Shown one piece after another: positions 17,773-39,440 of a stretch of DNA of 40,072 nucleotides (its first letter is position 1; every line of letters begins with the position of its first letter). The position numbers and the translations under genes were made by a program. This DNA comes from Acidobacteriota bacterium (lineage in GTDB: Bacteria > Acidobacteriota > Terriglobia > Terriglobales > Acidobacteriaceae): the NCBI GenBank assembly GCA_003225455.1, contig QIAB01000015.1, positions 21,200-61,271 on the forward strand. The letters run 5' to 3'. Below the pieces are notes generated by a model that ran no database searches, was not told the DNA's origin, and saw nothing but the letters and a program-made list of their open reading frames with translations.

Positions 17773-18175
17773 TCCAGTTGGCAGCCGGACCGGACGGTCG
17801 CTCTCGCCGCATTCCGCGGCGCGGGAGGAAAGTCCGAACTCCGTAGAGCAGTGTGCCGGATAACGTCCGGGAGACTGGCTTCAAGGTCAGTCGACGGAAA
17901 GTGCCACAGAAAACATACCGCCTTCGTTCTTCGGAACTGGGGTAAGGGTGAAAAGGTGCGGTAAGAGCGCACCGCCGCGGCAGCAATGCAGCGGGCAGGG
18001 CAAACCCCACACGGAGCAAGACCAAATAGGGAGGGATCTCGGGTTCGCCCGAGGACGTGCCGGCTCGGCGCGTCAAACCTCCGGGTAGGTCGCTAGAGCC
18101 GCGCAGCAATGCGCGACCCAGAGGAATGACCGTCCTGGCGGAGCAATCCGTCAGACAGAATTCGATTGGCTGGCG
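17773..18175 (+). ncRNA. rnpB: RNase P RNA, bacterial type A
   Basis: The catalytic RNA of RNase P, which trims tRNA 5' leaders. The universally conserved blocks are present in order: GACGGTCGC near the 5' end, GAGGAAAGTCCGAACTCC (17825-17842; one half of P4), ACAGAAAACATACCGCC in the middle, the GTAAGGGTGAAAAGGTGCGG block, GCAAACCCCACACGGAGCAAG (the tRNA-CCA side), GAGGAATGACCGTCC, and ACAGAATTCG (18155-18164; the other half of P4) near the 3' end. The ends can pair as P1 (CCAGTTGG at 17774 with TTGGCTGG at 18166, several G-U pairs). The length of about 400 nt is typical of type A. Open frames seen on either strand across it are chance. Confidence 0.95.
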
Positions 18176-18224
18176 AGTGTGCCGTTTTTGTGCCACTCGA
18201 TTTCGGGGGACGCCCCGCAATCTC

Positions 18225-36450: not shown

Positions 36451-36476
36451 CGCGCACAAGAGTGTGCGCGCCACAC
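36451..36476 (-). repeat. REP palindrome 2
   Basis: The stem CGCGCACA / TGTGCGCG with loop AGAG, then CCACAC on the plus strand; on the minus strand it reads GTGTGG + stem + CTCT + stem. It lies immediately upstream of the transposase start, oriented opposite to copies 1, 3, 4 and 5. Confidence 0.75.
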
Positions 36477-36491
36477 AACATGCACACGGCA

Positions 36492-36968
36492 ATGTTTCCG
36501 ACTCGCGCATACCAGTACCGGCGCAGGCTGCCGCATTTTCAGAAATTCGATCGAGCTTTATTTGTCACCTTTTGTAAGTTAACGAGAGATGCCTTTCCCG
36601 ACGACGCACGAAATTTGGTATTGCAGCATTGTGTATTTGAGCACGGGAAGAGGATCGAACTTCATGCAGCCGTGGTGATGCCTGACCACGTGCATCTGCT
36701 GTTTACACCCTTACGCGATGAACATGGCTGGCCGTATCCGCTGCCGAACATTTTGAAGATGATCAAAGGCACGGCGGCTCGGGACATTAATAGATTGCTG
36801 CGCAAAGGCGGGCCAGTTTGGCAAGATGAGTCGTTCGATCACGTGCTGCGATCACAGGAGAGTTTAGCGGAGAAGATTGAGTACATCCGCATGAATCCGG
36901 TGCGAGCCGGGCTGGCCCAGAAACCTGAAGAGTACAAATGGTTGTGGCTCGCGCCGTGTGAATTTTAG
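36492..36968 (+). CDS. REP-associated tyrosine transposase (RAYT, Y1/HUH family)
   Basis: A 158-residue single-strand DNA transposase-like enzyme related to IS200/IS605 TnpA. It has RALFVTFCKL, the metal-binding HUH motif in HAAVVMPDHVHLLF (His66, His68), and the catalytic Tyr131 in EKIEYIRMNPVRAGL, a hallmark of RAYTs. An ATG at 36480 would add four residues; a frame reaching 36462 runs into REP palindrome 2. No insertion-sequence ends are present. REP palindromes 1-4 lie within about 170 bp on either side of it. RAYTs of other bacteria cleave and process REP sequences as single strands, so this gene and its repeats form one unit. Confidence 0.88.
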   Translation: MFPTRAYQYRRRLPHFQKFDRALFVTFCKLTRDAFPDDARNLVLQHCVFEHGKRIELHAAVVMPDHVHLLFTPLRDEHGWPYPLPNILKMIKGTAARDINRLLRKGGPVWQDESFDHVLRSQESLAEKIEYIRMNPVRAGLAQKPEEYKWLWLAPCEF

Positions 36969-37051: not shown

Positions 37052-37077
37052 GTGTGGCGCGGGCACTCTTGCCCGCG
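37052..37077 (+). repeat. REP palindrome 4
   Basis: GTGTGG, stem CGCGGGCA, loop CTCT, stem TGCCCGCG: a perfect 8-bp stem. Its 3' edge abuts AATTTATGCCGGCAAC, a piece of the 5S rRNA 3' end. Confidence 0.75.
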
Positions 37078-37344
37078 AATTTATGCCGGCAACTTGAGGC
37101 GCCTAGCAGGCGTGAATGAGGCGCTGATAAGCGGCGATTGGAGCCTGCTGCCGAAACCCTGAGCGAAGCGGAGGGCAATCGAAGGGAACCGGATTTTATC
37201 CTGAGCGAAGCCGAAGGACTCCCACACTTTCGCGTGCAGCACAATCGGCCCTGCGGGGCTTAAGTTGCGGCGTTTGCGTGGCGTCTGAGCCACGCGCCGC
37301 AATCCTGAGCGCAGCGGAGCGGAGTCGAAGGATCTCTCGTTGAG
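37078..37344. repeat. 5S-derived mosaic A: 5S 3' pieces with repeat insertions
   Basis: Two pieces match the intact 5S gene region at 39.3 kb: ATTTATGCCGGCAAC (37079-37093) and a 45-nt stretch from CTCCCACAC to GGGGCTTAA (37219-37263; one substitution and a 2-nt gap). They are split by a ~125-bp insert that starts TTGAGGCG and contains CCTGAGCGAAGCGGAGG and TCCTGAGCGAAGC. A related repeat (TTGCGGCG, then CCTGAGCGCAGCGG, TCGAAGGATC) follows to 37344. No gene is seen on either strand in 37041-37344; open frames there are by-products of the repeats. Confidence 0.7.
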
Positions 37345-37758
37345 TTAGTACCTCGGCTGGGTACCGCCGAGAGCGCATCGAAGGAACAAGGAAATCGGAA
37401 CAATGAACGGCAGCAATACTGAAAACCAGAACCCTAGGCGGAATGCCATCTTGCGGAAATTTGCAATGCGACTCGGCTTTATGATTTTTTCAGAGAATGG
37501 GCCGAGGTAATAAAGTACATTCGCTACTCCCATCATGAGGAGATAGCCAACCGCCTGAAAAAATATTGTGAAGATCGTAATTTCAAAATCAACGGTGCTA
37601 TGCCTTTGAATGCACCACTCCCCCACTGCCGCATAGCATACGAAAGCCAGAGGTCCTGCGATCACCAAGCCGATGTTGTAACCAAGGCGCTGACCGCTCC
37701 ACCAATTTTCAGAAGCGTAAGCACTAGAGTCTTCGATGAGGGTTAAATCGGATGGCAT
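37345..37758 (-). CDS. Small multi-span membrane protein, unknown
   Basis: 137 residues from the ATG at 37758. Three hydrophobic segments are clear: NIGLVIAGPLAFVCYAAVG, FTIFFQAVGYLLMMGVANVL and LGFWFSVLLPFIVPISLFL. The N-terminal ~30 residues are soluble (SAYASENWWSGQRLGYN). The strong hydrophobic periodicity supports a real gene, but I do not recognise a family. It lies between two 5S-derived mosaics (A at 37.08-37.34 kb and B at 37.80-38.02 kb). Its last codons abut the repeat tract, so the C-terminus may be altered by it. Confidence 0.65.
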   Translation of the reverse strand: MPSDLTLIEDSSAYASENWWSGQRLGYNIGLVIAGPLAFVCYAAVGEWCIQRHSTVDFEITIFTIFFQAVGYLLMMGVANVLYYLGPFSEKIIKPSRIANFRKMAFRLGFWFSVLLPFIVPISLFLRCALGGTQPRY

Positions 37759-37868
37759 AACAAGCACAAGAGACTAAACCAATACTAGCTCGGAACAAAG
37801 GCAAAGGCCACGCTCATTTCTGAATGTGGCCTGTATTTATGCCGGCGACGACCTACTCTCCCACACAG

Positions 37869-37894
37869 GTGTGGGGCGGACACTCCTGTCCGCC
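37869..37894 (+). repeat. REP palindrome 5
   Basis: GTGTGG, 8-bp stem GGCGGACA, loop CTCC, TGTCCGCC. Forms an inverted pair with palindrome 6 ten bases further on, inside 5S remnant B. Confidence 0.75.
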
Positions 37895-37904
37895 ACATGT
37901 CTTT

Positions 37905-37930
37905 CGCGGGCAAGAGTGCCCGCGCCACAT
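37905..37930 (-). repeat. REP palindrome 6
   Basis: Stem CGCGGGCA, loop AGAG, TGCCCGCG, then CCACAT; inverted relative to palindrome 5. The pair has the structure of a BIME (two REPs head to head). Confidence 0.75.
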
Positions 37931-37953
37931 GGACACATTTGAATCCCAAACGG

Positions 37954-37987
37954 AAAAGGCCAATCAGACTTCTCCGACTGGCCTTTT
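37954..37987. terminator. Bidirectional terminator-like hairpin
   Basis: AAAAGGCCAATC (37954-37965) pairs with GACTGGCCTTTT (37976-37987), 11 of 12 positions, with A-run and T-run on the two sides. It is part of the insertion in 5S remnant B. Confidence 0.55.
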
Positions 37988-38206
37988 CGCGTGCAGTACA
38001 ATCGGCCCTGCGGGGCTTAACTTGAGGCGATTAGAAGGCGTGAGCGACTCTGAGCGTAGCGAAGAGGAGCGGGAGCCTTCTGCCGAAATCCCGAACGAAG
38101 TGAGGGATCTGCTTGAGGCGTTTTGCCGGTCGTGGCGAGTGGGACCTGAGTGTTCGTTGCGAAGGATATCGCGCCCAGAGTGCTATTCTTGGTTCAGGAA
38201 GTCAGC

Positions 38207-38668
38207 ATGCCTACACTAGATGATGTCTATCGGAAGTTTGGCGAAACGGCAGAAGCGGCTCAGCTGCTAGAAACTGAACTAGGAACGGCGCTTATGGTTG
38301 TTGACGCACTAGAGGAGAACCTTTTGACCGCGGCGAATCCAGGGCGAGCGGCCGAGCTGTTGGATGAAATCAACTCCAGCACCTTGGGACGCGTGCTTAA
38401 GCGCCTAACGGCTAAGACTCAGGCCTCGGGGGAGTTGGAGCGCCTGCTGTCCAAAGCACTCGTGGAACGCAATCGGCTTTCGCATTCGTTCTATCGGCGA
38501 CACAATTTCCGGAGAAATTCGGACGAAGGACGAGCCCTCATGCTAGATGATCTCCAATCGATCCATGAGTCGATAATCAGTGCCTACAAAGCCGTCATGC
38601 TGCTTTCCGGAGTAGATCTCGATTCCGTCAGTGGCAGCCCCACGCCAACTCGCCACTTGCCCATTTAG
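38207..38668 (+). CDS. Unknown helical protein with an Rx4H (HEPN-like) motif
   Basis: 153 residues from the ATG at 38207, supported by CAGGAAG eight bases upstream. It is all-helical by pattern (TAEAAQLLETELGTALMVV; LMLDDLQSIHESIISAYKAV). The segment ALVERNRLSHSFYRRH contains Arg88-Asn89-x3-His93, the R-N-x3-H form of the Rx4-6H motif that marks HEPN-domain proteins, many of them RNases in toxin-antitoxin and defence systems. This assignment rests on that motif and the helical layout only. It begins a three-gene cassette on one strand between two copies of the rrn 3' end. Confidence 0.65.
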   Translation: MPTLDDVYRKFGETAEAAQLLETELGTALMVVDALEENLLTAANPGRAAELLDEINSSTLGRVLKRLTAKTQASGELERLLSKALVERNRLSHSFYRRHNFRRNSDEGRALMLDDLQSIHESIISAYKAVMLLSGVDLDSVSGSPTPTRHLPI

Positions 38669-38774
38669 GACGACAGGCATATGGGAGAGCACACAGGAAT
38701 AGAAGAGGCCACGGCGCTTCCGGTTCGACCCGTGTGGTATGGTCTGCTGCAGACCGTCTGTTTGGGGGATTTGT

Positions 38775-38975
38775 ATGGACTGGCCGAGCTGGATAAATAT
38801 CTTGAGCGCGTTCCTGACAGCTGCAGGACTGGTTCTTGCTGCAGTGCAGACTCTAAGGGTAAAGAAGCTGAAGAGGCGGAATCGGGAGCTTCTTACACTT
38901 TTTATCGAGGACGCTTCGTACGTCAGCTTTGAGCACGAGTTGATCGACGAGATTGCGAAGAGGCTTGACGATTAG
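38775..38975 (+). CDS. Small single-span membrane protein, unknown
   Basis: 66 residues from the ATG at 38775, with GGGGG about eight bases upstream. One transmembrane helix (WINILSAFLTAAGLVLAAV, ~6-27) is followed by a strongly basic stretch (RVKKLKRR) and a 30-residue cytoplasmic helix (FEHELIDEIAKRLDD). Topology is N-out/C-in by the positive-inside rule. The next gene starts four bases after its stop, so the two are coupled. No family recognised. Confidence 0.55.
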   Translation: MDWPSWINILSAFLTAAGLVLAAVQTLRVKKLKRRNRELLTLFIEDASYVSFEHELIDEIAKRLDD

Positions 38976-38978
38976 GTC

Positions 38979-39269
38979 ATGCTTCGCTATCTAGTCGCTT
39001 CCCACCAGCGTGGATGCGACCTCTACCGACATCTTGTTGACTACTACCTCTCGGATGAACCGAGTTTCACGTTCAGCGATTTGGCTCGGCTCTGCAAGAC
39101 AGATTTGATCGGTTATCGCTGGCAGGAGCAGTCCTGGCGTTCGTTAATCGCGACACGGGAGGAAAACCGAGGAACTCCCATCCCAACCGACCTATTCCTT
39201 TCGGAAAACAAATCTCCGCGCTATGCCTACTGGAAGGCGCGCGTAGATTCGAAAACGGACAGAGGCTAA
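38979..39269 (+). CDS. Small soluble protein, unknown
   Basis: A 96-residue protein rich in Arg, Tyr and Trp (CDLYRHLVDYYLSDEP; LARLCKTDLIGYRWQEQSWR; PRYAYWKARVD), with no signal peptide or membrane helix. The ATG is three bases after the stop of the membrane protein gene. It ends 13 bp before the rrn terminator, which is read from the other strand. Possibly a nucleic-acid-binding partner in the cassette; no family recognised. Confidence 0.55.
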   Translation: MLRYLVASHQRGCDLYRHLVDYYLSDEPSFTFSDLARLCKTDLIGYRWQEQSWRSLIATREENRGTPIPTDLFLSENKSPRYAYWKARVDSKTDRG

Positions 39270-39281
39270 TCCCTCATCAAA

Positions 39282-39322
39282 AGGCAAAGGCCACATTCGT
39301 TTAAGAACGTGGCCTTTATTTA
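39282..39322 (-). terminator. Terminator of the rRNA operon
   Basis: On the minus strand, AAAGGCCAC and GTGGCCTTT form a 9-bp stem with a 14-base loop, directly after the 5S 3' end and followed by a T-rich stretch. The same structure is repeated at 37798-37840. Confidence 0.75.
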
Positions 39323-39440
39323 TGCCGGCAACGACCTACTCTCCCACACACTTTCGCGTGCAGTACAATCGGCCCTGCGGGGCTTAACTGCCGTGTTCGG
39401 GATGGGAACGGGTGGATCCCCCGCGGTAAGATCACCGACA
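39323..39440 (-). rRNA. rrf: 5S ribosomal RNA
   Basis: About 118 nt on the minus strand. The 5' end TGTCGGTGA pairs with the 3' end CGTTGCCGGCA (helix I). CCGTTCCCATCCCGAACACG is the universal loop A/B region, followed by AGTTAAGCCCCGCAGGGCCG, and GTGGGAGAGTAGGTCG near the 3' end is typical. It is last in the operon; 23S lies 346 bp upstream in the direction of transcription. Confidence 0.95.

Follow-up and report, generated by a model that had tools for sequence, protein, structure and literature searches.

Why should an rRNA operon be followed by broken copies of its own last gene, each cut into by a different palindromic repeat? The window analysed here is a stretch of 40,072 nucleotides from an Acidobacteriaceae genome, the end of a 61-kb contig in a draft of 195 contigs, and carries at its right edge, on the minus strand, an intact 5S rRNA gene with the 3' end of 23S rRNA. 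Two split remnants of the 5S 3' half lie 1.3-2.2 kb past the intact 5S. In the initial annotation they were taken as a sign that a piece of 5S rDNA had become part of a dispersed composite repeat, multiplying like the 5S-derived SINEs of eukaryotes. In this study, we consider it likely that the remnants are rrn operon ends displaced by repeated insertion, the end of the operon being an insertion hotspot and not the source of a 5S-based mobile element.

Two split remnants behind the intact 5S gene

In an Rfam search, 39323-39439 was the only 5S above the cut-off in the whole genome. The features of the region are as follows, with genes called as simple ORFs.

36462-36968, plus: RAYT-like (Y1_Tnp) transposase ORF (PF01797, E 1.1e-4, just short of the cut-off; VMPDHVHL motif)
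37052-37079, no strand: REP adjoining remnant A, a 100% inverted copy of the REP in remnant B
37079-37093, minus: remnant A, 3'-most piece (TTTATGCCGGCAAC), 100% over 15 nt
37094-37187, plus: element E splitting remnant A after GGCAAC (E pattern, 0 mismatches)
37191-37218, plus: 28-bp hairpin insert GGATTTTATCCTGAGCGAAGCCGAAGGA at 5S "site 1", in the same position in seven other genomes
37219-37263, minus: remnant A, 5S segment CTCCCACAC..GGGGCTTAA, 98% to the intact 5S
37264-37335, plus: E-like hairpin variant TTGCGGCG..CGCCGCAATCC..GGATCT (visible as an inverted repeat; G179 has a similar hairpin at this 5S site)
37345-37767, minus: array ORF between remnants A and B, no Pfam family
37797-37867, minus: remnant B1, rrn-type terminator and 5S 3' tail, cut after CCCACACA (89% to 39280-39350; nhmmer E 1.4e-15)
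37869-37929, no strand: REP pair (GTGTGG..GGACACTCCTGTCC.. / ..GGGCAAGAGTGCCC..CCACA), repeats within the window
37950-37985, no strand: another terminator hairpin of the rrn type, joined to 5S (G006 and G043 have near-identical terminators behind their 5S)
37985-38022, minus: remnant B2, 5S segment TTTCGCG..GGGGCTTAAC, 100% to 39352-39389
38022-38110, plus: element E (TTGAGGCG..GGGATCT) abutting remnant B (E pattern, 0 mismatches; family and stem covariation)
38150-38668, plus: array gene with RNRLSH motif, HEPN-like by eye only, no Pfam match
38681-38932, plus: array ORF, no Pfam family
38979-39269, plus: array ORF with its stop 11 nt before the rrn terminator unit, no Pfam family
39288-39317, no strand: bidirectional hairpin terminator of the rrn operon (inverted repeat GGCCACATTCG..CGTGGCC)
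39323-39439, minus: intact 5S rRNA gene (RF00001, 102 bits)

The matches of both remnants to 5S are far beyond chance, with nhmmer E-values of 4e-12 for remnant A and of 1e-15 and 5e-11 for the halves of remnant B, and both splits are confirmed. Remnant A is interrupted after GCCGGCAAC by 125 bp (37094-37218), a composite insert made up of the dispersed palindromic element E (TTGAGSCG...GGATCT) and the 28-bp hairpin, and the junction GGCAAC/TTGAGGCG recurs in G023. Remnant B is interrupted after CCCACACA by 117 bp (37868-37984); this insert holds the REP pair, and the accompanying "hairpin" is better described as a second rrn-type terminator (AAAAGGCCAATCAGACTTCTCCGACTGGCCTTTT). Since this hairpin resembles the terminators behind 5S in relatives, remnant B is probably two fused tails, in which the 5S 3' end between the terminator and TTTCGCG has been lost.

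As had been noticed, the two remnants stop matching 5S at the same place, GGGGCTTAA(C), so that GCTTAA(C/G) stands directly against TTGAGGCG in remnant B and against TTGCGGCG in remnant A. This common junction can be traced to a preference of E and its variants for AA(C/G), which the 5S sequence offers in GCTTAAC and GGCAAC. With 4 occurrences against 2.3 expected, the bare 8-mer TTGAGGCG is not significant in the window, but the longer element is. A second TTGAGGCG at 38113-38120, shortly past the E of remnant B, runs on into unrelated sequence and is possibly a truncated E.

Arrays of 5S tails in the Acidobacteriaceae

Sampling covered 40 relatives at first and then 140 genomes of the family, most of the genomes compared being drafts that break at rrn. 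Truncated copies of the rrn terminator with a 5S 3' tail occur in about 23 of the 140, at one to five per genome and generally no more than about 4 kb downstream of the intact 5S, with five in a row in G043. All remnants with a clear match are co-oriented with the intact 5S and lie on its 3' side, and a scan of the reverse strand for remnants returned palindromic terminators only. None was found in 25 further downstream regions in which no remnants were known beforehand, and the arrays are therefore a minority trait. The outer terminator is usually kept, as in remnant B and most remnants of relatives (remnant A has lost it), and the loss of 5S, from the inner side, stops at points that vary from 47 to 142 of 163. 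These points spread over about 95 nt and are clustered, with 9 of 43 falling within 4 nt, a concentration reached in 24 of 5000 uniform simulations.

Three junctions recur. GACC/28-bp hairpin/CTCCCACAC, seen in remnant A, is found in G024, G043, G061, G064, G092, G176 and G179; CCCACAC(A)/REP, seen in remnant B, has a repeat of this kind at the identical 5S position in G044, G099, G115, G142 and G162, with similar cases in G010 and G043, and often has a RAYT gene directly after it; GCTTAAC followed by E of the TTGAGGCG type, common to remnants A and B, is found in G061, G070, G115 and G154, with variants in G043 and G179. When the exact junction of the 28-bp insert with 5S was searched across GTDB, only G024 matched, because the insert varies, and alignment-type searches are required. 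The non-ribosomal junction is thus real, recurs in other genera and is not a different one in each copy, which bears out the view that plain decay is not enough to explain it.

Comparison with relatives shows where the remnants came from. In genus g37, a remnant of G108 at -2.9 kb aligns with the intact 5S and terminator of G180, and the backbone genes further out are common to both genomes and collinear, with some extra DNA; likewise, backbone genes that end beside 5S in G124 lie 4.1 kb off in G070, beyond the remnant. A remnant thus sits where a relative of the same genus has its intact 5S, and the remnants are therefore displaced 5S tails. The nearest tail in G115 and in G043 is the one most like the genome's own 5S (100% and 99%), and the outer tails are less similar; together with the genus comparisons, this order points to accretion at the 5S end, by which the old tail is displaced. 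The remnants of G061 and G154 and remnant B of G000 are slightly closer to the 5S of other genomes than to their own, so gene conversion or transfer blurs their ages. A secreted-like protein family (NLSIFATLLFCAL...), of which the G176 copy matches no Pfam family, adjoins an outer 5S tail in three genera (L124:6001-6870, L153:8287-9159, L050:3029-3589), which suggests an old array position common to all three.

The array genes of the window itself belong to no Pfam family. Across the family, genes between or beside the tails encode Shedu SduA_C with a cold-shock domain, GmrSD_N, SLFN_AlbA_2, nSTAND NTPase, DndB, FRG, Phd/YefM with PIN, PIN, ParE, DUF2442 and Y1_Tnp, largely defence or toxin-antitoxin types, and those listed 6-9 kb off are mostly housekeeping genes (DnaB, aconitase, LepA, glutamine synthetase). 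As the array genes were picked by hand, the comparison with control genes is descriptive and an enrichment of defence genes is not proven by it. Two Y1_Tnp and two reverse transcriptases are among the genes near rrn in genomes without remnants. G015, itself lacking a 5S remnant, has a reverse transcriptase gene with a YADD motif (L117:8513-9775) that ends about 250 bp from the rrn terminator.

The strongest rival explanation for the 5S arrays is homology-anchored uptake of foreign DNA, that is, homology-facilitated illegitimate recombination in which 5S/23S serves as anchor, the other end is random, a foreign gene is added and the old tail is left behind. It draws on much of the evidence above, as rrn is a conserved anchor, the cut points vary, the array genes look foreign and some remnants are nearer to the 5S and terminator of other genomes than to the current ones of their own. 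We nevertheless find it doubtful, since it leaves unexplained both the junction specificity of E and REP and the tRNA cases described below, in which only E and 10-35 nt were gained.

Arrays of a comparable kind have been described. 5S remnants with inserts at the distal ends of rRNA operons were reported from Peptococcaceae (Firmicutes) and Pseudoalteromonadaceae (Stepanov & Fox 2021, PMC7812874), as truncated 5S-like copies that lie downstream of a normal 5S, at times more than one, and each have a putative terminator. The present arrays are of the same kind: they lie downstream of a normal 5S at the distal end of the operon, lack a terminal part of 5S, contain large insertions and, remnant A excepted, mostly end in a terminator. 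They differ in coming from Acidobacteriaceae, Acidobacteria not being named in the text of that paper, and in their intervening genes, a dispersed junction element and a link to tRNA and tmRNA ends, features absent from its passages on these copies (PMC7812874).

Element E and duplicated gene ends

Independently of 5S, 77 copies of E were collected from nine genomes by means of the E pattern or of matches to E. In 36 of the 77 a copied gene end abuts exactly the TTGAG end, with the second copy of the flank belonging to an intact gene, against 12 of 616 random anchors. About 20 of these 36 duplications are pieces of tRNA genes of many kinds, with an intact tRNA just beyond, and the tRNA junctions are usually cut at TCGAAC (T-loop GTTCGA). 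The duplicates measure 23-53 nt, 10-35 nt of unique sequence separate E from the second copy, and AAC or AAG precedes E in 54 of the 77. One stem pair of E is kept complementary by 19 of 20 copies, some with G-C and others with C-G. E has one fixed end, and it shows neither the terminal inverted repeats nor the fixed-length target duplication of classical MITEs and IS elements; the duplicated piece starts near the gene boundary whatever its length (23-53 nt), something that a simple staggered-cut model would not predict. At a locus labelled L224 (G007 C34), two tandem units of duplicate and E stand before tRNA-Asn with differing unique spacers, and the spacer sequence is therefore not part of E. 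Integron attC sites were considered, as GTTRRRY resembles GTTAAGC at the E-5S junction, and rejected, since the tRNA junctions read GTTCGA instead.

In the genome of the window, E and REPs, the latter including the REP of remnant B, are dispersed, and most good copies of E sit at RNA-gene fragments. The 5S remnants have two and a 3' remnant of tmRNA has one, and three more adjoin duplicated tRNA pieces, a 3' end of tRNA-Cys (one E) and 5' halves of tRNA-Gly (two E). A further E lies between two copies of the start of one MerR-type gene. On C105 (L174:3508-5035), the intact tmRNA is followed by E, a copy of the T-arm tail, a HigB/HigA-like toxin-antitoxin pair (by eye) and a tmRNA 3' remnant with E inserted in the T-arm. 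On C181 (L175:4393-4919), the intact tRNA-Gly(CCC) is immediately preceded by two units in tandem, each made of a tRNA-Gly 5' half and E.

About half of the E copies have no duplication within 420 bp, among them a copy in a coding linker of G001 that is absent from the relative G095, an empty site. E may therefore insert without duplicating, and the flank duplications may be a process separate from E insertion. Another reading is that unequal recombination or replication slippage made tandem duplications first and that palindromic repeats gathered later, tolerated only in the redundant copies, and that reading is consistent both with E and REP copies that lack a duplication and with the E inside the tmRNA remnant, which has tmRNA sequence on both sides. 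We hold it to be unlikely, as the duplication ends exactly at the TTGAG end in 36 of the 77 copies of E, and slippage supplies none of the whole unrelated genes that lie between the 5S copies.

Fragments of tRNA genes left by the integration of mobile elements are known (PMC9897764), and share with the present cases an intact gene and a partial copy across inserted DNA. A related explanation would be the site-specific integration of small islands or satellites at the 3' ends of 5S, tmRNA and tRNA genes by a tyrosine integrase acting in trans, the elements carrying the 3' part of the target. A regenerated target with a displaced 3' fragment, the classical signature of such islands, is indeed what is seen, and the E junctions at the tRNA T-loop, the toxin-antitoxin and defence cargo and the HigBA-like pair behind tmRNA would fit as well. 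The insert, however, is often only about 80-140 bp and non-coding, unlike in those tRNA fragments (PMC9897764), and the same element serves many RNA genes: one E joins at 5S, at coding starts and at many tRNA species, the tail matching the local sequence in each case, unlike a fixed-core integrase, and 5S is cut at variable points and not at one crossover core. No integrase was found in a Pfam scan of 30 array or neighbouring proteins. We therefore regard integration of this type as distinctly improbable.

A proposed model of repeated insertion at the rrn 3' end

We propose that the rrn 3' end would act as an insertion hotspot, at which each insertion into or behind 5S duplicates the 5S 3' part with its terminator; the intact 5S would be retained beside 23S, and the old tail would move outward with new DNA in between. 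Repeated events would build an array of intact 5S, terminator, gene(s), truncated tail with terminator, gene(s) and older tail. Palindromic repeats lie at the cuts, E after AA(C/G), REP at CCCACAC and the 28-bp hairpin at GACC/CTCCC, and give the remnants their common junction. E would act alike at tRNA, tmRNA and some protein-gene ends, the truncated gene-end copy abutting its TTGAG end and the intact gene coming after E and the short unique sequence. We infer that duplication and insertion are one event, in which the TTGAG end is fixed and flanking DNA, a few nucleotides or, at 5S, whole genes, is carried along; an intact gene would always follow because only events that spare the essential RNA gene survive.

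Dispersed hairpins near Y1_Tnp genes are typical of REP/RAYT systems, and a separate group of REP-associated tyrosine transposases belongs to Acidobacteria (PMC8266576, PMC3733652). Here too a Y1_Tnp gene stands beside REPs in the window, and in relatives such genes stand directly behind REP-capped 5S tails. E differs from REP in its greater length, its two stems and the long gene-end duplications beside it. As RAYT-like genes occur in several arrays, a single-strand transposase of this type (RAYT/Y1-like) is a candidate for joining the hairpin in trans, perhaps, or else repair-coupled copying could do so; we put this forward tentatively. It is with similar reserve that we suggest E to be an undescribed small mobile element of this family with a fixed end (AA(C/G) before TTGAGSCG) and a loose end, which might insert at the ends of genes, those for structured RNAs among them, and keep the gene whole by duplicating a long local stretch of the target, its loose end at 5S bringing in whole defence or toxin-antitoxin genes and so giving rise to cassette arrays bounded by 5S tails behind rrn. 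A limited search of the open-access literature returned no description of E with long target duplications, of E-like elements at tRNAs or of 5S hotspots with defence genes.

If displacement by repeated insertion is right, the odd ribosomal mosaic is a record of insertion after insertion behind a single-copy essential RNA gene, in a region that gathers genes for defence and toxin-antitoxin systems with no integrase in sight. At tRNA genes, the footprints of E would offer dozens of natural insertions with exact ends, through which the movement of small bacterial palindromes becomes directly testable. Truncated 5S and tRNA copies in these genomes should with due caution be treated as junction scars and not as genes.

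5S-derived SINEs of eukaryotes join 5S sequence to other repeat sequence, as is the case here. The SINE-like reading could also draw on the non-ribosomal junctions common to many genera, on the 28-bp insert at an identical 5S position in several of them, and on a few 5S copies away from visible rrn, namely one on C17 of G158, 44.8 kb into a 294-kb contig, and others on three short contigs of G024. However, DNA and Rfam searches of the window's whole genome placed every 5S match on the rrn contig (C9), at most 2.3 kb from the intact gene, the very outcome that the annotation had named as speaking against its own proposal, and across the family the remnants are nearly all rrn-linked and co-oriented. 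Nor is the 5S part conserved in a repeat unit, E elsewhere carrying tRNA, tmRNA or protein-gene ends or nothing. Unlike the eukaryotic SINEs, the copies here consist of the 5S 3' half, are not dispersed and give no sign of 5S retroposition, and we consider the proposal very improbable. That the tails are leftovers of decayed additional rrn operons is hardly credible, for they bear rrn terminators but recur as 3' ends only, cut at recurring points and with as many as five in an array, and the window holds no 16S or 23S remnants.

The G024 copy with an insert on C97 was considered as a functional expanded 5S and rejected: it scores 25 bits in Rfam, below the cut-off of 38, its 5' half has diverged, and 23S does not adjoin it in the contig. 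Outside the array, the window also carries an RNase P RNA (class A) at 17782-18185 (262 bits).
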